From positions 1 through 22,254 of the IMG/VR virus record IMGVR_UViG_3300014960_000005: 22,254 nt of DNA; one strand, given 5' to 3'. A program made the translations under genes and the position numbers. Below the pieces are notes generated by a model. That model did not search any database, was not told the origin of the DNA, and saw only the letters and a program-made list of their open reading frames with translations. This DNA is from a virus. Position 1 is the stretch's first letter, and each line of letters starts with the position of its first letter. Below, piece by piece: positions 4,115 through 21,452 of the stretch.

Positions 4115-4570
4115 TCAGGCCGGGACGCCGATCGTCACTGTCCACGTCACGGACAAGGTATCGGCTGCGCCCTTGTTCACGACATCGAACTTGGTACGGC
4201 AGAGCATCGTTCCCGTTTCCGAGCCGTTGAACAGACCCGCTTCCGTGACCGCGCCTGTACCCGTACCGGCCCCGAACGTAGCGACATACGCCACCGCGTT
4301 ATCCGTGACCGTGGTCGAGGTCAGAGCGACCCGGCCCAACTCATTCACCAGAGCGGTCTGCGCCGCGCCGGGAGCCGTCGTTCCCGAACCCACCGCCATG
4401 TGGCTCATCGCCGTAGCGGTCGCGTCCTTCATCCGTGCAGCGATGAATCCCAGCCCCGTCGTCACGACAAGGTTCTGCACTTCCTGTTGCTGCTTCAGTT
4501 GCCCATCCGGTCCCGTCAGGACAATCTTCAACGTGCCGGTTGCGCTGACCCGATCAAGAATATTGCTCAT
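4115..4570 (-). CDS. Putative tail/fibre-associated structural protein (151 aa)
   Basis: Start ATG at 4570 follows a GGAG Shine-Dalgarno by six bases. The protein is Ala/Thr/Gly/Val-rich, beta-type and without membrane segments. An N-terminal GTLKIVLTGPDGQLKQQQEV leads to VVTTGLGFIAARM, then MAVGSGTTAPGAAQTALVNE and a final immunoglobulin-like stretch (DTLSVTWTVTIGV). The AVGxGTTAP...TxLxNE pattern is familiar from small tail-fibre or baseplate accessory proteins in proteobacterial phages. It lies between the 18-residue-repeat protein and the fibre, consistent with a connector in the adsorption apparatus. The specific role is inferred from context only. Confidence 0.78.
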   Translation of the reverse strand: MSNILDRVSATGTLKIVLTGPDGQLKQQQEVQNLVVTTGLGFIAARMKDATATAMSHMAVGSGTTAPGAAQTALVNELGRVALTSTTVTDNAVAYVATFGAGTGTGAVTEAGLFNGSETGTMLCRTKFDVVNKGAADTLSVTWTVTIGVPA

Positions 4571-4579
4571 GTGTTGCTC

Positions 4580-5935
4580 CTAGAAAGTAATGCGGTAGCC
4601 GACGTAATCCTCTGCGAAGTAGCTCAGATCGCAGTACCCCTGACATACAACCAGCCCCGAGTCGGCAGCGGAGGCTGAGTCGGAAATGCTTTTCCCTGTG
4701 GCTTTGCTCGCCGTGTCGGTCGCTATTCCGGATTCGGACAGGGCTTTCCCTATCGCGTGGCTAAGGGCTTCCGTGGCGTAAGCGGCATCAGAGGGCGCTT
4801 TAGCGAGAAGGAGTGCAACTTGTTCACTCGCGGTCGCCGCATCGGAGAGGGCTTTGCCGAGAACCGCCGCCACCAGATCAGTCACCACACCGGAGTCGGA
4901 GAGTTCTTCGGGGATGTAGCTTCCCGTCACCAGCGAATCAACCGCTGTCACCGAGTCCGACAAGGCTTTGCTGAATGCCTTTGCGGCTTGATCAGAGGCC
5001 GTAGGAGCGTCTGCAAAATCGCGGCTGTACTCCGCAACCAGAGCAACCGAATCCGCGCTGGAAACGCCTTCTACGAGGCTCTTGGCAAAGACAAAGATGG
5101 TGTCGTCACCAACCGTCGCTTCTCCGTACAGGTCGTCGGTAACCGTGACGCTTTCAGCCAGAGCCTTCATTACCTCGAAGGTCGCCGCGTCCACTGCCGT
5201 TATCGGGTCGGTAGCGGACTTGCCAATAGCCTTGGCTGCATCGTCTGTCGCGGTCGCAGCATCCGCGTAGTGCAGGCCAAGCTGGAGCGCAATCGCCTCC
5301 AGTGCCGTCACCGTGTCCTGATTGCTCTTTCCCGCTGCGAGCGTGTACTGGTCGGAGGCTTCCGCCGTATCGGTCGTCGCTTTGCCTGCCGCTAGGCTGA
5401 CTTGCTCCACAGCGGTAATCGCTTCGTCCGCAAGCCGGGACAGACTCCACGCCGCCGTATCGGACAGTACGGCAGCGTCTTGGGCTTGGGTCGCTAGAGC
5501 GAGAGCCAGTGCGTCTGAACTCTGGGCGACATCCGCCAGAGCTTTCCCGATGGCGAGGACTTGCTTATCGCTGGCCGTTACCTGATCCGCGACAACCTTC
5601 CCGAACCCGACCAGTATCGAGTCGATGGCGGAAACGAGATCAGCGGTCGCCTTGCCCAACCGCAGCGATGCCTGATCGCTAGCCTTTGCTGTATCCGCCT
5701 TGTGCGTTCCCAGCGTCTTGGTCAGGTGATCCGAGGCGCGACTGACATCCGCCAACGCCTTCCACACTGATAGGACGTGAGCATCCGAAGCGGAAGCGAG
5801 ATCGGCAAGGTGGACCAGCCGCACGAACAGCCCGACGATCCCCGACGCCTTGAGGGCGACATAGCTCGGCGTAGCCTTCAGCCGTTCCGCTAAGACCGTC
5901 GCTCGCAGCTTCAGCAGGGAGGCCGTCAGGCGCAT
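4580..5935 (-). CDS. Tail protein built of ~18-residue tandem repeats (451 aa)
   Basis: Almost the whole protein (about residues 43-430) is a degenerate tandem repeat with an 18-residue period, roughly A-D-x-V-T-A-S-D-x-x-x-L-A-x-G-K-A-L, with about twenty units. It is nearly devoid of aromatic residues except near the ends; the C-terminus (CQGYCDLSYFAEDYVGYRITF minus its last residue) is Tyr/Phe-rich and may be a folding cap. The ATG overlaps the stop of the BppU-like gene by one base (TGATG). Comparable Ser/Ala/Asp repeat proteins occur next to fibre genes in other phages. The repeat suggests a long fibrous or helical spacer, possibly set by repeat number. The shaft or tail-spike role is an inference. 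Confidence 0.82.
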   Translation of the reverse strand: MRLTASLLKLRATVLAERLKATPSYVALKASGIVGLFVRLVHLADLASASDAHVLSVWKALADVSRASDHLTKTLGTHKADTAKASDQASLRLGKATADLVSAIDSILVGFGKVVADQVTASDKQVLAIGKALADVAQSSDALALALATQAQDAAVLSDTAAWSLSRLADEAITAVEQVSLAAGKATTDTAEASDQYTLAAGKSNQDTVTALEAIALQLGLHYADAATATDDAAKAIGKSATDPITAVDAATFEVMKALAESVTVTDDLYGEATVGDDTIFVFAKSLVEGVSSADSVALVAEYSRDFADAPTASDQAAKAFSKALSDSVTAVDSLVTGSYIPEELSDSGVVTDLVAAVLGKALSDAATASEQVALLLAKAPSDAAYATEALSHAIGKALSESGIATDTASKATGKSISDSASAADSGLVVCQGYCDLSYFAEDYVGYRITF

Positions 5936-13015: not shown

Positions 13016-14488
13016 CTAACACAAGTTGGTGGCCGGAACAACCCATTTCGTCTTGCCGCAGTCGTAGATCCGATACCACCCATTCCGCATACACAAAAGA
13101 TGCTCGGACAGCGCCGAGTCATACGAGTCTCCCAGCTTCTGCTTCAACCGATCCTTCCGAAAACCCGACTTGTGGTGTCTTTTTTGACCGATAACGTAGC
13201 TATAGTCGGGTCGAGTCTTTCCGGCCAAAGCAAACCCGAGTTTTTCGTACATGGAGCCAAGGTAAAGGCGATTGTCCGAATAGGACACAACCCGCTCATT
13301 GGGAAAATCCTTGCGAAACGCAGCAAATAAGCGGGACGCCGCCCCAACACAGACGCCGTTGGACGCGAACCGAATCAGCTCTTTCCCCGAGGCAGCCCCT
13401 CGCTCGCTCACTGGCTTGCTAAACACCATAGCCGAGACGATCTGGTCGCCGTCCAGCAGATAGTATGCCGTACCACTTGCGGCGCAGCCCTGCATGTGGG
13501 TTTTTTCCAAAAAGTCCGACACGTCGGCAGCCGTTCCAACACAGAGCTTCATTTTTCTAGCAAAAGTTCTACTCCCTTTTCCAACCAGACAACGCAGCAT
13601 GTTCTTCACAGCGTGTTGGCGATACACCCACTCGTCTTCAAAAATGTGAATCAGGCGAACCCCTTGCTCGGAGCAGCGCTGACTTTTACGCAAGTGGTCC
13701 GAGGGTAGCTTGAACTTAGTGCTGTGGTAGTACAGTCCGTCAAACTCTATGGCCACTCCGAAATCCGGCAGTACGATGTCAACCTCTTGTGGCCCAATCA
13801 AGGATCGGTCGCGTCGAGTCGTGCGAACGCCAAATTCCGTCAAAAACGCTACTATCTCGTCCTCTCCGCTTGACCGCTGGTTTGCGCAGCGTGGGCACCG
13901 TACCCCGTTATACACCACGTCGCTCATACGAGATACAGTATAAGCTCCGTGTTTTTTGCAATTGATGGTAACTGGGGATTCGCTGGTTGCAATCGAGTCG
14001 CTAATCACGTCAAGACCGAGGCTTCCGGCGACAGACAACCAGTCCTTTCGCTTTTTCTCACCGTTGTCGCGCTTCTTTTCTTCGATGCAACGCGGACAGG
14101 CGATAACACCGCGAGCGTGATGGTGCGGAGCCTGTTCAAAGACAACATCGTGTCGCTTGCAACGGACGCTAACCTTTGTGTTTGCACCTCGGTAGTCTGT
14201 CTGCGAATAGTCAAACGCTTCGCCGTGGGTCGCAGCACACCGCAACAAAAAAGCCTCCAGGGTGGAAGGAGATTTTCCTGAACATAGCGCACACTTCGAC
14301 CCTTTCAGGTGGCTGTGCATGTCTTGCACAAACTCTCCGTGCGTGGGGCAAACAATGACCCCTTTGGTATGGCGATTGACATACACAAATCGTGAATAGT
14401 CGTACTTCTCCCCGTGCTTCAGGCGGGCCTTCGCCTCCCACTCCCTGTCTTGGAGAGCCGCTCGCTTTTTCTGGGAAGCCGTATTCAT
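13016..14488 (-). CDS. Free-standing homing endonuclease, zinc-ribbon plus EDxHD (Vsr-like) type
   Basis: A 490-aa protein. Three zinc-ribbon repeats of the C-x2-H...C-x2-C kind are visible (Cys47/His50/Cys66/Cys69; Cys110/His113/Cys131/Cys134; Cys177/His180/Cys198/Cys201), as in DUF723-type DNA-binding units. A restriction-endonuclease-like core follows: SSGEDEIVAFL (206-216), EVDIVLPDFGVAIEFDGLYY (235-254) and His255, then LIHIFEDEW. This is the arrangement of the Vsr-related EDxHD homing endonucleases described with fractured phage genes and I-Bth0305I. The C-terminal third (about 305-435) resembles the conserved accessory domain of that family. The ATG follows GGTGAG by six bases. It lies between terminase and portal with its own terminator, a typical intergenic insertion. 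Its target is probably nearby, perhaps the terminase gene of an intein-free relative. Confidence 0.88.
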   Translation of the reverse strand: MNTASQKKRAALQDREWEAKARLKHGEKYDYSRFVYVNRHTKGVIVCPTHGEFVQDMHSHLKGSKCALCSGKSPSTLEAFLLRCAATHGEAFDYSQTDYRGANTKVSVRCKRHDVVFEQAPHHHARGVIACPRCIEEKKRDNGEKKRKDWLSVAGSLGLDVISDSIATSESPVTINCKKHGAYTVSRMSDVVYNGVRCPRCANQRSSGEDEIVAFLTEFGVRTTRRDRSLIGPQEVDIVLPDFGVAIEFDGLYYHSTKFKLPSDHLRKSQRCSEQGVRLIHIFEDEWVYRQHAVKNMLRCLVGKGSRTFARKMKLCVGTAADVSDFLEKTHMQGCAASGTAYYLLDGDQIVSAMVFSKPVSERGAASGKELIRFASNGVCVGAASRLFAAFRKDFPNERVVSYSDNRLYLGSMYEKLGFALAGKTRPDYSYVIGQKRHHKSGFRKDRLKQKLGDSYDSALSEHLLCMRNGWYRIYDCGKTKWVVPATNLC

Positions 14489-14545: not shown

Positions 14546-16834
14546 TTAGACAAATCTTACTGGGGACGGCTTTACCTCTCTGCGGGAGGAACCGACCGTG
14601 GTGCCAAGGAACCCGGAATCCGCGTGTAGGCAGGCGTACTGCAAGCTGTCGGCGATGTCAGAAAAAGGATGGCTTTTCTCCGGTTTGTCGTCGGTTTCGC
14701 CCTTGGTGTTGATCTTGTACCGATACTTGCCCGCCAGCGCGGTGATCAGCGGCTTGGCCCCATCGGGGTTCAACAGCAGTCCTGGCTTGCCGTCGACCAT
14801 GCGGGTCAGGTAGTTGTCCACAGCGGCGATCCGCGCCGTGATCGAGTTGGTCTTGGCCGGTTTAACCGAGAACCCTTCCTGCTTGAACATGTCGGCCACG
14901 CAGCGTTCGTCGGTCTGGGCACGCTGGTAAGCAGCGGGGTCGATGACGACCTGGGTCCGGTAGTTGGCAAACTTGTTCACCAGCAGGGGCTTCAGCTTCT
15001 CGCGGATGAACCGCAACGCGCCCATTGACTCGCTGGTCAGAGCATCGTGGACGATCAACCGCCCGTCATACGCAACCTGACAGACCGTCGCAGCGGGGGA
15101 CAGACCCGCATCCACCCCGATGATCACCGCCGCGCCTGGCAGCGGTTTGGTGGCTTCCTTGGCCACATGGACGGCGCGGTCGAACGACCGGAACACCGGC
15201 TGCCCGGAGAGGCTGCGACCGAACTTGCCATCCACGTACACCGCGATCCAGTCGTCCGACTTGCCTTCGCACAGGTTCTCGTAATACCCGTCGGGCAGGA
15301 ACTCGACCCAGTCGGCTTCGGGGGAGCGGCCACTGGGCTGAATCGTGACGTGGGTGTTGGCCGGTGGGGCCGACAGCAAGCCTTCCCACCACGAGTCGTA
15401 ATCCGGCGGGTTGGTCGCGCCCCAGACCTTCTTGATGTCCTTGCCGAAGTCGTCACATGGCCCGACCCCGTTCATCGACTTGTCGGGATACCGGCCCAAG
15501 CGCCCGGTCAGCGCGTTGTAGATGTCGGGGTGGATCTCTCGAAACTCGTCCATGACGCCGAAGGTCAGTTGCAGTGACAGCAGCCGCCGCACGTCGTTGG
15601 AGTCGTCCAGTCCACGGAACAACACCTCGGCTTCCACGTCGTCGGCCCGCAGCACGAACTTCGACTCGGTCTTGTGCATTGCACCCAGCGGACCCAGCCA
15701 CTTCATGAAGTCGGGAATGGTGGTATCCCAGAGGATCTGGCGCGTATTCCTTATGACGGCGGTGCGGGAACGTCGAATGCCATCCCGGCAGGGAGCGATG
15801 CGCTTGGCTTCGTACAGGATCTTCATGATCGCCGCTGTCGTCTTCGTGGAGTTGTGATGTATTGCTCCGTCAACAGTTAGGTAGTTGTGAGTGCCGTCAA
15901 CTTGAAGATCCCAATAGACACTACTTGATACACGCCGTGTGATAGCTAGAATGGGCCTGTCAGATGTACTCACACTATCGGAGGTGTTAGATGGGTAGAA
16001 CAAATCACGAGCTTGTCGAGCAAGTTCGGAGGCTTGCCACAGGAGACGTCTCGTCAGTCGAGATAGCCAAGGTGCTTGGGAAGAACCCACGCCACATTCG
16101 CAAGATCCTTCTGAGACACGACCTCCCTCGTTTGCGAGAAGGCGGTCGCCGTGGAGAACACAACCATCAGTATTTTGAAGGTAGGCGGATAACTCTAAGC
16201 GGGTACGTGTGGATAACTCCTCCAGAGGGGCACCCGACACAGAAGCAAAGGAAAGGTCGAATAGCTGGGTACATGAGCGAGCATCGATACGTGATGGAGA
16301 ACAAACTAGGACGCCTTCTCTCAAGCACAGAGAGAGTAGACCATGTAGACGGTCTAACACTCCATAACCACCCCGACAACCTTCGCGTGTTCCAGTCGAA
16401 CGGGGAGCATCTGAGGGAGACTTTGACTGGCAGAGTCCCCGTGTGGTCAGAAGCGGGTCACGCGAACATGTTTTTACGACATCGCCAACCTGAAGCTCTT
16501 GAACCCGTCGATATGTACCGTCAGCGCAAAGAAGCTGGTGAGATCCGGCTGCGTCAAATTCTCCTTCTGGCGTTACAACTCGGTACAGATAGTCCGTACC
16601 TTTTGGGAACGAAATGCTGGACTGAGAAAGCTGGAATCGACATGTCTTGTCGTTCCACGATAGAACGCGCATTGGCCGATCTATATCGGCGATGGGGATG
16701 GGTCCATGCTCTGTGACCACCAGAGCGTCCCCAGATAGGCAACCCACCGGGCCGACAATGAAGTTCGAGAACTTGTCCGCCGTCAGGAACGGCGTGACGC
16801 TGGGCGACGGGTTGTAGACGAGGTGATCACTCAT
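14546..16834 (-). CDS. Terminase large subunit interrupted by an intein
   Basis: The 762-residue precursor should splice to a 465-residue terminase, residues 1-31 plus 329-762. The extein shows the two-domain motor: the Walker A loop GPVG/STKTT (residues 28-31 and 329-333), with Thr where the second Gly of a classical P-loop would be; Walker B GVMDEF (Asp429-Glu430); a coupling segment WGATNPPDYDSWW; and an RNase H-like nuclease with IIGVDAGLSP, VVIDPAA and SDIADSLQYA supplying acidic residues. It translocates and cleaves DNA at the portal. It overlaps the small terminase stop by eight bases (ATGAGTGA). Unspliced protein should be inactive because the ATP-binding loop is split, so packaging depends on splicing. 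Confidence 0.93.
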   Translation of the reverse strand: MSDHLVYNPSPSVTPFLTADKFSNFIVGPVGCLSGDALVVTEHGPIPIADIDRPMRVLSWNDKTCRFQLSQSSISFPKGTDYLYRVVTPEGEFDAAGSHQLLCADGTYRRVQELQVGDVVKTCSRDPLLTTRGLCQSKSPSDAPRSTGTREGCRGGYGVLDRLHGLLSLCLREGVLVCSPSRIDARSCTQLFDLSFASVSGAPLEELSTRTRLELSAYLQNTDGCVLHGDRLLANEGGRVSEGSCECGVGSSQAPWLSRLTRRLLWQASELARQARDLFYPSNTSDSVSTSDRPILAITRRVSSSVYWDLQVDGTHNYLTVDGAIHHNSTKTTAAIMKILYEAKRIAPCRDGIRRSRTAVIRNTRQILWDTTIPDFMKWLGPLGAMHKTESKFVLRADDVEAEVLFRGLDDSNDVRRLLSLQLTFGVMDEFREIHPDIYNALTGRLGRYPDKSMNGVGPCDDFGKDIKKVWGATNPPDYDSWWEGLLSAPPANTHVTIQPSGRSPEADWVEFLPDGYYENLCEGKSDDWIAVYVDGKFGRSLSGQPVFRSFDRAVHVAKEATKPLPGAAVIIGVDAGLSPAATVCQVAYDGRLIVHDALTSESMGALRFIREKLKPLLVNKFANYRTQVVIDPAAYQRAQTDERCVADMFKQEGFSVKPAKTNSITARIAAVDNYLTRMVDGKPGLLLNPDGAKPLITALAGKYRYKINTKGETDDKPEKSHPFSDIADSLQYACLHADSGFLGTTVGSSRREVKPSPVRFV
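15925..15952 (+). promoter_or_regulatory. Sigma70-like promoter for the antisense HNH gene
   Basis: TTGATA and TAGAAT are separated by 16 bases on the plus strand, within DNA that on the minus strand encodes Hint block F. The predicted start near 15959 gives a leader of about 32 bases to the HNH ATG. Confidence 0.55.
15980..15985 (+). promoter_or_regulatory. Shine-Dalgarno of the antisense HNH gene
   Basis: GGAGGT lies five bases ahead of the ATG at 15991. A near-perfect ribosome-binding site in the antisense of an intein would be unlikely unless the plus-strand frame is a real gene. Confidence 0.8.
15991..16716 (+). CDS. HNH homing endonuclease encoded antisense inside the intein (241 aa)
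   Basis: The N-terminus (residues 5-45) is a helix-turn-helix, HELVEQVRRLATGDVSSVEI followed by AKVLGKNPRHIRKILLRHDL. The HNH fold follows: SGYVWITPPEGHP (70-82), EHRYVMENKLGRLL (98-110), RVDHVDG with His118, then LHNHPDNLRVF with Asn126 and Asn130, and His140. This is the EHRxVMExxLGRxL...HxDG...NxxxNL pattern of phage HNH_3-type nucleases, with one His of the usual HH replaced by Asp117. It has its own promoter and GGAGGT. Residues 1-156 occupy the linker between the Hint halves; residues 157-241 lie antisense to Hint blocks A and B and are probably overprinted. It would cut intein-free terminase alleles and drive homing of the intein. The gene is nested in the terminase gene on the opposite strand, so its transcript is antisense to terminase mRNA. 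Confidence 0.9.
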   Translation: MGRTNHELVEQVRRLATGDVSSVEIAKVLGKNPRHIRKILLRHDLPRLREGGRRGEHNHQYFEGRRITLSGYVWITPPEGHPTQKQRKGRIAGYMSEHRYVMENKLGRLLSSTERVDHVDGLTLHNHPDNLRVFQSNGEHLRETLTGRVPVWSEAGHANMFLRHRQPEALEPVDMYRQRKEAGEIRLRQILLLALQLGTDSPYLLGTKCWTEKAGIDMSCRSTIERALADLYRRWGWVHAL

Positions 16835-17339: not shown

Positions 17340-17378
17340 GGACGCTGACCGCAAGGTCGGTGCGGGGAGATGGTGGTG

Positions 17379-17407
17379 TTAATACTACGGGTTAGTTAGG
17401 GTGTCAA
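17379..17407 (-). promoter_or_regulatory. Strong sigma70 promoter for the packaging/structural operon
   Basis: On the minus strand TTGACA and TATTAA are separated by exactly 17 bases. It is the best promoter in the window and fires leftward into the terminase genes. The spacer contains CTAACTAAC, related to the recurring GTTAGC motif. Confidence 0.8.
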
Positions 17408-17430
17408 GGGTACGCAGATTGTGCGTACCC
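17408..17430. repeat. 9-bp dyad next to the late promoter (operator candidate)
   Basis: GGGTACGCA and TGCGTACCC form a perfect inverted repeat with a 5-base centre. It abuts the -35 of the structural-operon promoter, a place suited to an activator, or to a repressor competing with RNA polymerase. Confidence 0.65.
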
Positions 17431-17547
17431 CGTTGAGTTAGGTGGACGTACCGAAACAAGTTTACGTGACGGCGTTGGATGGGTGTTAGGTGTTTAACAG
17501 CTGTAAAAATTTGGTCTTGGGGTGTGAGCGGCACGTGAGGGTGGGGT

Positions 17548-17563
17548 ACGGGTCGCGACCCGT
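17548..17563. repeat. Perfect 16-bp palindrome
   Basis: ACGGGTCGCGACCCGT reads the same on both strands. It may be a dimeric regulator site or, with the following TTTCC, a weak hairpin. Confidence 0.6.
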
Positions 17564-17696
17564 TTCCGGGGGTGGGGTAGGGGGTACCCTGGGTCGCGTG
17601 TTAGCACGTCGCGCCTGCAGGTTAATGGCGCACCATAGGTGGAAGTACCGCGCTGCGCTCAGGCAAGGCGTGGGAACCCAAAACCGCACGGCACGG

Positions 17697-17725
17697 TTGA
17701 TATGTCGGGCGCCCGGCGCTAGGGT
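17697..17725 (+). promoter_or_regulatory. Weak candidate plus-strand promoter
   Basis: TTGATA and TAGGGT are 17 bases apart on the plus strand, upstream of the first rightward gene. The -10 is poor, but it is embedded in a CTAGGG/CCCTAG dyad (17719-17737) that could be an operator. Confidence 0.3.
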
Positions 17726-17777
17726 TAAAACCCCTAGAACAATGGGTCGCAGCATGGTGCGGGGGAGTTGGCCCCAT

Positions 17778-17798
17778 GTACCGCGCAGAGTACCGCGC
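17778..17798. repeat. Two GTACCGCGC direct repeats 12 bp apart
   Basis: GTACCGCGC occurs at 17778-17786 and 17790-17798, with a third copy at 17645-17653. The spacing of about one helical turn fits cooperative protein binding upstream of the rightward genes. Confidence 0.45.
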
Positions 17799-17827
17799 GA
17801 ACATCCTAACGCATGATGCTGCGGGGC

Positions 17828-17861
17828 GACTAAAAGGTATTCGCAAGAGTACCTTTTAGTC
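17828..17861 (+). promoter_or_regulatory. 12-bp perfect hairpin in the leader of the 83-aa gene
   Basis: GACTAAAAGGTA pairs with TACCTTTTAGTC around a 10-base loop. It ends nine bases before the GGAGG of the next gene. It could be an operator, an RNA-binding-protein site, or a hairpin that controls translation. It is not followed by a T run, so it is unlikely to be a terminator. Confidence 0.6.
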
Positions 17862-17879
17862 ACCTGCATGGAGGGCGAC

Positions 17880-18689: not shown

Positions 18690-18706
18690 ACTACAGGTCG
18701 CTGTGC

Positions 18707-18732
18707 CCCGTCCCCGTGTTACCGGGGACGGG
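18707..18732 (+). terminator. Rho-independent terminator after the 176-aa gene
   Basis: CCCGTCCCCG and CGGGGACGGG form a perfect 10-bp stem with a 6-base loop, followed by TTT and later TTTT. It lies 17 bases after the stop codon. Confidence 0.8.
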
Positions 18733-18875
18733 TTTAATCGCGTTTTGAGGCATCGCCCTGCCGTCAAGGTAGGGTGGTAGCTTGACACCATGTAGCGGCG
18801 CTCCTGCGCCCGAATAGGTGCCTTGCTGCGTGTATCTGCATCGCATCCTGCGTGTGTCTGATGTACTGGCACCGG

Positions 18876-18949
18876 CGTGCCGGCAGGTTAGCTAACAAGT
18901 GTTTACAAAGTTTACGCGCCTCGCGTAAACACCAACGTGCCGGCAGGTT
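18876..18949. repeat. CGTGCCGGCAGGTT direct repeats, inverted copy at 19169
   Basis: Exact copies lie at 18876-18889 and 18936-18949, 60 bases apart. A CCTGCCGGCACG inverted copy is at 19169-19180. Each copy is directly next to a GTTAGC or GTTTAC motif. Confidence 0.7.
18910..18930. repeat. Inverted repeat of two GTTTACGCG units
   Basis: GTTTACGCG and CGCGTAAAC form a 9-bp perfect dyad with a 3-base centre, built from two copies of the GTTTAC array motif. Confidence 0.6.
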
Positions 18950-19042
18950 TGTAAACTGCTGTTAGCAATTATCAAATTATCCAGGCGGGTTAAGAACTGG
19001 CTGGATGGCATAAGTGTTTGTTTTTCCAGGGTCGGTGTAAAC

Positions 19043-19095
19043 ATTGTGTACCCTATTATATATTTATTTACCATCATCATAATTATATATACGGT
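19043..19095. other. AT-rich patch, possible unwinding element
   Basis: This short stretch, including ATTATATATTTATTTACC and AATTATATATAC, is strongly AT-rich in a GC-rich genome. It lies in the middle of the repeat array, where a DNA-unwinding element would be expected in an origin. Confidence 0.45.
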
Positions 19096-19113
19096 CAGGT
19101 TCTGACGAACCTG
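19096..19113. repeat. 7-bp perfect hairpin
   Basis: CAGGTTC and GAACCTG pair around TGAC. It borders the AT-rich patch. Confidence 0.5.
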
Positions 19114-19203
19114 CCCTAGTGTTTACAGAGTTTACAAAACCCAACCCGCGTAAACACTCTTGTAAACACCTGCCGGCACGCTGGAACATTCGTTTATATA
19201 CCT

Positions 19204-19221
19204 AATTATCCATGGATAATT
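19204..19221. repeat. 18-bp perfect palindrome with a third half-site
   Basis: AATTATCCATGGATAATT is a perfect palindrome; another GGATAATT follows directly, and AATTATCC also occurs at 18975. The half-site matches seven of nine bases of the DnaA-box consensus. Confidence 0.6.
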
Positions 19222-19469
19222 GGATAATTGTCTTTTTAGTTTACAAATAACCGCCTAGCGCACAACCTGTGCGCCTGATGGACGTTTGTTAGCTACTTTT
19301 GCCCCCTTGAAAAAAGCTGTTTACACGACTGCCAGCCCCCCCCTCCTGCCTTTTTGCTAACAGTTCTGTAAACACGTTTCTTCAAACCTGCTAACACACG
19401 CACTCCCTGCCGTAAACACTTTGTTTACAACCCTGTAAACACCAACTCGCAAACCGGCTAACGTAACTG

Positions 19470-19499
19470 TTGACATCCTAACACCCAAGGTGCTAACGT
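19470..19499 (+). promoter_or_regulatory. Promoter for the early gene run, leaderless-type
   Basis: TTGACA is separated by 18 bases from TAACGT, which has a TG extension one base upstream. The predicted start coincides with the A of the ATG at 19506. The -10 overlaps a GCTAAC motif. Confidence 0.5.
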
Positions 19500-19505
19500 G
19501 ACATC

Positions 19506-19850
19506 ATGGCTAACAACCCTCGCCCCCTGACGTTGCACTTCAACCCGGCTGACTTCCGTCGGCTGACTTTCAAAGCTGCTAACAACGACTGCCCGCCCGA
19601 GGTCTGGATCAAGCGCACGCTCAATCACTACATCAACACTGGCAGTCTACCCGGCCCCGAGTCGTTCAATCGACTGTATCCAACAACCAAGAACCACCCC
19701 CCGCATCACCCGTCCCTAACCTCCGTCTTTGCCAGCGTCCATCTAACCTGGCTGGATCACCTGATCCAAACCTTACCCCCGGTCTACCTGACACGAGGCA
19801 TCAGCCGTCGTCGTCTGGTGGAGACACTGACTCTTTGTTCACTGGAGTAA
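19506..19850 (+). CDS. Hypothetical protein, RHH-like N-terminus (114 aa)
   Basis: The N-terminal 45 residues (PLTLHFNPADFRRLTFKAAN, then PPEVWIKRTLNHYI) have the strand-helix-helix pattern of ribbon-helix-helix DNA-binding proteins. A His/Pro-rich linker follows, then a second part (HLTWLDHLIQTLPPVYLTRG, then RRRLVETLTLCSLE) that may be another similar unit. As the first gene after the repeat array, it is a natural candidate for the protein that binds these repeats. There is no Shine-Dalgarno, and the predicted transcript starts at the ATG. The RHH call is by eye and uncertain. Confidence 0.7.
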   Translation: MANNPRPLTLHFNPADFRRLTFKAANNDCPPEVWIKRTLNHYINTGSLPGPESFNRLYPTTKNHPPHHPSLTSVFASVHLTWLDHLIQTLPPVYLTRGISRRRLVETLTLCSLE

Positions 19851-20782: not shown

Positions 20783-21057
20783 TCTGGACTTCATCCTGCG
20801 GTCGCATCGAACTCCACCTGACCAAAGACCAAGCGCGTACCGGATCGCATCCTGGCCCCTGTGATGACGACATCGCTTACCTGCGGACACTGCCCAAGAT
20901 CAAGCGTCAGCTTGCCCAGGTTGACCCCGACATCCTGCGCTGCGAACTCAAGGACTACGGCGCATGGGATGCCGACGAACTGGCAGATCACGACGCCAAC
21001 CTTGACCGTGTGCTGTGGATCGCTTGCTGTGACATTCGAGAGGAGTTAGTGCAATGA
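20779..21057 (+). CDS. Conserved-type early phage protein (92 aa)
   Basis: Start ATG 20779 follows AAGGA and overlaps the preceding stop. The protein has IELHLTKDQARTGSHPGPCD, then YLRTLPKIKRQLAQVDPDIL and LKDYGAWDADELADHDANLD with LWIACCDI. The SHxGxCDxD...LxxYGAWDxxELxDHxxNxxRxLWIAxxDI pattern is one I associate with a widespread but uncharacterised family in proteobacterial phages and prophages. It is soluble and helical. The stop overlaps the next ATG by ATGA. Confidence 0.85.
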   Translation: MIWTSSCGRIELHLTKDQARTGSHPGPCDDDIAYLRTLPKIKRQLAQVDPDILRCELKDYGAWDADELADHDANLDRVLWIACCDIREELVQ

Positions 21058-21452
21058 CTGACATCGGCAACAACGACGACTACATCGATGTACGCGACAT
21101 CATCGATCGGATTGAAGAACTTGAAGGCGAGATTGAAGCTTACGCCGAAAAGATGAGCGACTGGCAAGCCAATGCCGACAACCAAGAAGAACTTGAAACA
21201 CTCGCCGCCCTCATGCACGAACTCAAGGGTTACGGCGGCGAAGTGCAATGGCGCGGTGACTGGTACCCCTTGACTCTCATCCGCCAATCGTACTGGGTTA
21301 AGTATGTGCAGGAATTTCTTTGGGAGATCGGTGACTTGCCCAAGGACATCCCGCCTTATTTGGAGATTGATTGGGAAGAGACAGCCAACAACATCCGCAT
21401 GGATTACATGGACGTGGACTTTGACGGCGTGACGTACATCACCCGCTGCTAA
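21054..21452 (+). CDS. Conserved-type early phage protein (132 aa)
   Basis: AGGAG lies eight bases before the ATG. The N-terminal half is a strongly acidic helix (DVRDIIDRIEELEGEIEAYA), then LAALMHELKGYGGEVQWRGD and WYPLTLIRQSYWVKYVQEFL, and the end DYMDVDFDGVTYITRC. The combination of DVRDIIxRxEELE and LIRxSYFxxYxxE...VDFDGxxYxxR is known to me from phage and plasmid early genes often found near anti-restriction functions. Acidic content would suit a DNA mimic, but that is speculation. Confidence 0.83.
   Translation: MTDIGNNDDYIDVRDIIDRIEELEGEIEAYAEKMSDWQANADNQEELETLAALMHELKGYGGEVQWRGDWYPLTLIRQSYWVKYVQEFLWEIGDLPKDIPPYLEIDWEETANNIRMDYMDVDFDGVTYITRC

Follow-up and report, generated by a model that had tools for sequence, protein, structure and literature searches.

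The window analysed here is an entire IMG/VR virus record of 22,254 bases, which probably represents a fragment of a viral genome. Its minus-strand late genes encode an SU10-type adaptor, a portal, a head protein and a terminase, placing the virus among the SU10/HMO-2011-like podoviruses, and a search with the portal matched 36 of 50,697 phage records, with Rhizobium phage RHph_TM3_14A as the top match at 37%. The array of short repeats considered below occupies the early arm, in a stretch between gene A and a 114-aa open reading frame that contains no convincing ORF of its own, and the terminase genes lie at most 3 kb away (Table 1). The large terminase gene itself (14546–16834, minus strand) has an insert of ~297 residues (residues 32–328) at the P-loop, which ends in HHN before S and gives intein-type matches in Pfam and NCBIfam, suggesting an intein; the terminase of locus L302 is without it. 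Flanked by portal and terminase is a 490-aa gene (13016–14488, minus strand) with a DUF723 match, a weak match to the MTES_1575 endonuclease and a zinc-finger-like element, probably a mobile or homing nuclease to judge from these matches. A 132-aa protein encoded at 21054–21452 (plus strand) resembles proteins of other phages named ArdA-like antirestriction.

Table 1. Features in and around the candidate origin region of the window.
Feature	Position	Strand	Remarks
Divergent late/early intergenic region	17355–17867		1 GTTTAC (17460), 1 GTTAGC (17600)
Gene A (P0002), 176 aa	18159–18689	+	Homologues in L016, L290, L293, L302, L307 and L331 precede a similar region
Candidate noncoding origin region, gene A to early operon	18690–19505 (816 bp)		Repeat density; place and architecture as in relatives
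CGTGCCGGCAGG, copy 1	18876–18887	+	Abuts GTTAGC
Second site class, 15 GTTTAC and 8 GTTAGC	18887–19497	both	Counts, shuffles
CGTGCCGGCAGG, copy 2	18936–18947	+	GTAAAC three bases further on
Left tandem pair, AATTATCA and AATTATCCA	18967–18983	+	8-bp period, pointing right; first copy imperfect
AT-rich core, candidate DNA unwinding element	19054–19093		85% A+T; record 58% G+C
CGTGCCGGCAGG, copy 3	19169–19180	-	Adjoins GTAAACA
Right iteron set, AATTATCCA	19204–19229		19204–19212 (+) points right; 19213–19221 and 19221–19229 (-) tandem, pointing left
114-aa ORF (P0001)	19506–19850	+	Directly after the array; two ribbon-helix-helix units by eye only

Counted on both strands, GTTTAC occurs 15 times at 18901–19440, against 26 copies in the full window, and GTTAGC nine times between 18887 and 19514, eight of these being noncoding because the copy at 19509 falls within the next gene. 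All three window copies of CGTGCCGGCAGG and four of the five TTATCCA sites are inside the array. In 2000 dinucleotide-preserving shuffles of 18690–19505, GTTTAC averaged 1.1 copies (maximum 6), GTTAGC 0.6 (maximum 4; eight observed) and AATTATCCA 0.004 (maximum 1; four observed), while the commonest 6-mer of any kind averaged 4.5 and never exceeded 10, against 15 observed. The dense motif array described in an earlier sequence-only reading is thus borne out in all its motif counts, including the eight GTTAGC, the three CGTGCCGGCAGG repeats and the AT-rich patch; its 15 GTTTAC cores stand as well, and only the accompanying chance expectation of well below one has to be raised to the shuffle mean given above. 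Similar motif density elsewhere, which that reading had named as grounds for its refutation, was not encountered: the best non-overlapping 816-bp stretch of the window reaches only seven copies of its commonest 6-mer. An Rfam scan of the window gave no match to an RNA element, a promoter and terminator scan gave no clear signal above shuffles, and a search for DNA similarity between the array and phages returned a single chance match. Cumulative GC skew, computed for the window and seven relatives, has its extremes near the array in G001, G008, G014 and G070 but not in others; it follows gene strand and is inconsistent across these sequences.

The key words of the array are the four AATTATCCA sites, not GTTTAC or DnaA boxes. 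All four copies in the window lie inside the array, and the TTATCCA sites found there belong to them. Of all 40-mers in the region, the one richest in A+T sits between the two iteron sets, which converge across it, with the tandem pairs 233 bp apart in an exact test. The two features looked for in an iteron-type origin, a tandem short word at one place only and an adjacent AT-rich element, are therefore both present.

A comparable array recurs at the same place in relatives. Portal searches fetched 80 loci, and a blind scan for k-mer clusters, applied to the window and 31 loci, found that many of them have a dense cluster upstream of the portal, at a distance of ~3.5 to 6 kb. Where the sequence was read, the clusters fill a noncoding stretch with a leading early gene on one side and the remaining early operon on the other. 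The cluster word is AATTATCC in L022, L028, L042, L049, L052, L056 and L080, TGGATAACT-like in L010 and L011, AATATTCC in L012 and L014, and GGACAAA in L053 and L057; the scan detected no cluster in L025, L058, L063 or L084. Loci fetched with the terminase supplied additional words, and several short ones had none. AATTATCCA itself is present in 13 of 18 records, with 60 of its 61 copies in one cluster per record by their listed positions, and a reversed control word has one copy across all 18. The relatives that bear AATTATCCA carry it at the same genomic place at ~50% portal identity; RHph_TM3_14A has a lone copy outside the array place. Five of the 18 records (G001, G003, G009, G014, G017) are without the word, and in G009, which has DUF927 and no AATTATCC, the array was probably cut off, because the contig starts beside the RHH gene. 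A scan of the collection for the tandem form yielded 62 stretches. When these were tested exactly for a double tandem pair, 11 loci proved to converge and none to diverge, and 51 have one direction only. In the nearest terminase relative, L232 (77%), both AATTATCC and a GTTTAC array are missing from this place; in their stead, a different AT-rich noncoding region (5600–5700) holds an inverted repeat of ~23 bp. As judged by comparing these sequences, layout and place are kept among relatives and the words are rewritten quickly.

The closest counterparts of the window in this respect are the contigs with gene A homologues; scanning viral contigs with a profile recovered these six and no others. 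Five of the six have an AT-rich stretch flanked by AATTATC iterons that face each other, and in these sister loci 9 to 16 GTTAGC with one or two GTTAAC surround the iteron core. In four of the five, the pairs satisfy the exact tandem test and are 189–207 bp apart; the right copies of L307 are not in tandem. In L016, the remaining contig, the AT-rich region contains different repeat words. Relative to the sister loci, the window adds its 15 GTTTAC. Several long, imperfect inverted repeats around AAAATCAATAACTTGCGAG at 4484–4790 of L302 terminate in GTTAGC/GCTAAC pairs, and an AAATCAA..CTTA word is shared by L302 and the origin regions of other relatives.

No initiator gene lies within the 22-kb fragment, and the pairing of initiator and array therefore rests on relatives. 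A DUF927 protein of ~960–1010 aa is encoded by eight of nine long portal relatives and by none of 41 control records, the controls being records matched by the GTTTAC pattern and the comparison covering 50 of the 58 loci initially listed. RHph_TM3_14A (L089) belongs to the eight loci left out; its protein was scanned separately, and a DUF927 protein is present. The lone miss among the nine, G003 (43.5 kb), is without DNA polymerase A as well. DUF927 also goes with iteron number: in the 19 of 62 loci that come from records of at least 28 kb carrying the tandem word, it was found in 11 of 14 records with at least four iterons and in none of five with fewer. The three many-iteron misses comprise two fragments of 34–35 kb and L297, an unrelated phage record in which a AATTATCC array starts ~50 bp behind a Prim-Pol/DUF3987 gene. 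Three records of 46–74 kb with the tandem word have no DUF927, and the sister record G070 has it ~17 kb from the array. Among 20 records, DnaB_C was found in none and DNA polymerase A in eight.

The DUF927 protein resembles the Cch helicases. A PDB sequence search ranks the SCCmec Cch helicase first (5dgk, E 1.3e-7), the NCBIfam profile Cch1 matches at E 5.5e-10, below its cut-off, and two of three DUF927 proteins scanned have weak primase-polymerase matches in the N-terminal part. The predicted C-terminal part is a weak model (pLDDT 57.6) that ends strand-helix-helix-strand-strand, and its top Foldseek match is again Cch, at a non-significant E of 0.14. DUF927 helicases are described as relatives of the SaPIbov1 Rep protein, and iteron binding has been assigned to the C-terminal domain of SaPI Rep, as has binding at direct repeats to that of SCC Cch2 (as described in PMC7581432).

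The iteron core is surrounded by sites of a second kind. GTTAGC, GTTAAC, GTTTAC and GTATAC all fit GTWWRC, and the second site class is accordingly real, conserved in kind and fast-changing in wording; the two related binding motifs of the sequence-only reading hold in this sense. In one group of relatives the class takes the form GTGTATACAC, near-confined to the array and to the promoter of the small RHH gene that starts the late operon: all ten copies of GTGTGTATAC in G013, and all five copies of GTATACAC in G015 and 13 of 14 in G008, are at these two places. Because the word sits at both, an operator of an autoregulated RHH protein is likely in the GTGTATACAC relatives. Pfam RHH_5 was confirmed for one protein of the MKRWN/MKRCN type, and the L010 protein fell below the cut-off.

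RHH genes do adjoin the second site class in many relatives, and the gene after the array in the window had been taken for RHH-like, too. That assignment gained no support: the 114-aa protein has no Pfam RHH match, hhalign was not supportive, a PDB sequence search was negative and its AlphaFold model is poor (pLDDT 41). No homologues of P0001 were found in viral contigs, phages or genome contigs. It is the candidate binder of the window's second site class. The GTTTAC pattern matched 111 stretches in viral contigs, mostly by chance, with real arrays in about a dozen. Some ten of these contigs (L092, L093, L097, L106, L110, L126, L129, L138, L176, L183) look like one family by sequence or motif positions, with L191/G020 and perhaps L155 beside it. 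In this unrelated phage family (L097, L183, L176, L138, L106, L110 and similar), 6–9 GTTTAC separate a gene resembling that of a terminase small subunit from an early gene; the few ORFs scanned yielded no replication proteins.

The array is very probably the place where the virus starts copying its genome. We put at roughly 0.7 the probability that 18690–19505 is an iteron origin of a lytic SU10/HMO-2011-like podovirus, served by a self-loading Prim-Pol/DUF927 helicase. In the proposed mechanism, tandem 8-bp AATTATCC iterons on both sides of the AT-rich core, facing each other, would be bound by the C-terminal domain of a phage primase-polymerase/DUF927 helicase of the Cch/SaPI-Rep kind. Two opposed assemblies of this helicase would open the AT-rich core, load themselves and make primers for both forks, which the phage DNA polymerase A would extend. 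Around the core, the second and denser class of sites, which reads GTTTAC/GTTAGC in the window, GTTAGC/GTTAAC in the sister phages and GTGTATACAC elsewhere, would most likely receive a small phage DNA-binding protein that ties origin firing to the early-to-late transcription switch. Several results weigh against this reading: L232 and L016 lack these words, GC skew fails to mark the array, the modelled C-terminal part matches Cch without significance, the initiator gene of G070 is far from the array, and the three records of 46–74 kb combine the tandem word with a lack of DUF927.

The same repeats could instead form a transcription-control hub, with GTTTAC/GTTAGC as operators of a small phage repressor, of RHH type in relatives, AATTATCC as the site of a further regulator and replication starting elsewhere. 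The confinement of the GTGTATACAC class to the array and the RHH/late-operon promoter speaks for such a hub, as do the GTATAC at most 130 bp upstream of all 19 MKRWN/MKRCN-type RHH genes (mostly at -24 to -26) and the single GTTTAC and GTTAGC in the window's own divergent promoter region. However, MIRHN-type RHH genes have no such upstream site (0 of 4), many AATTATCC arrays have few sites of the second class or none, and AATTATCC is near-confined to one cluster, has a tandem 8-bp period converging on an AT-rich core and tracks a helicase-type initiator, all of which makes a hub unlikely. In a variant within the origin reading, GTTTAC/GTTAGC are not regulator operators but iterons of another type that serve the same initiator, for which the 12-mers and 39-mers described for the Vibrio chromosome 2 origin offer a parallel. 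GTTTAC could also be a second iteron because in G020, an unrelated phage record, a VapE/SF3 helicase-primase gene is followed at ~350 bp by 14 copies, many of which are spaced in a 9-bp rhythm; the sister phages with GTTAGC fields, moreover, have no MKRWN-type RHH match in their loci. Against this, the second class follows the RHH promoter in RHH-bearing relatives and differs in wording among phages that have the AATTATCC iteron in common, and we regard the variant as possible, if doubtful.

A partition centromere or packaging site would likewise explain dense short repeats that precede a small, possibly DNA-binding ORF, with terminase genes close by. Yet no ParA-like gene was recognised among the scanned window proteins, there are no signs of a plasmid-like life and the array is strictly tied to a helicase-type initiator, leaving this explanation very improbable. 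A host DnaA-dependent origin draws on TTATCCA, which resembles a DnaA box, but TTATCCACA has no copy in the array, and the 9-mer has an 8-bp period and changes across relatives (TGGATAACT, GGAATATT, GGACAAA); such an origin is hardly credible. DnaA boxes were accordingly rejected as the basis of the array. Of the earlier claims, the TTATCCA sites are thus present and their DnaA-box-like nature is not, since they are parts of AATTATCCA; the iteron-type origin is well supported by way of the AATTATCC iterons common to relatives, not by way of GTTTAC or DnaA boxes.

An iteron origin served by a DUF927 helicase is of a kind already known. It is like the SaPI/SCCmec origins, used by the self-loading Cch/Rep helicases, in its short iterons within a noncoding stretch and its Cch-related DUF927 initiator. 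SaPI and SCC elements have their origin immediately downstream of the helicase gene, whereas in these phages many kilobases separate the two, as in G070. Further differences are that these are tailed phages with a DNA polymerase A, that the converging iterons lie inside a dense second site class and that the phage helicase protein itself holds the weak primase-polymerase matches. Iteron plasmid and lambda-O origins also have tandem iterons adjoining an AT-rich element, and their initiators load DnaB; the arrangement is alike, but DnaB_C was not found in the 20 records here. RHH operator arrays are known from the CopG/omega type, and in relatives the palindromic word recurs at the RHH promoter and the origin; the window's 114-aa protein resembles RHH by eye only. 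The phage P4 origin has short iterons, too. Its alpha protein is an initiator that joins primase and helicase (as described in PMC7145576), like the one proposed here, but helicase family and iteron word differ. Literature searches returned, in the texts they covered, no description of the origin of this podovirus group. New here are the phage group, how far the origin lies from the initiator gene, iterons that converge within a second field of sites, and the speed at which both words are rewritten.

A broader, tentative proposal is that of a two-layer origin, in which a conserved converging-iteron core for the Prim-Pol/Cch-like helicase would be combined with a separately evolving operator field of the late-promoter regulator, making origin firing and the early-to-late switch one device, and in which rapid rewriting would give close relatives origins that do not cross-react.

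For a widespread environmental podovirus group, the locus provides a testable pair of candidate origin and initiator. Initiation of the Cch/SaPI-Rep type, so far a matter of staphylococcal islands, would then also operate in tailed phages that bring a polymerase of their own. With iteron words that turn over fast while their place stays fixed, these phages lend themselves to direct tests of how origin and initiator co-evolve and of whether the origins of different phages are incompatible. If the proposal is true, the non-cross-reacting origins of close relatives may act as a barrier between co-infecting phages.
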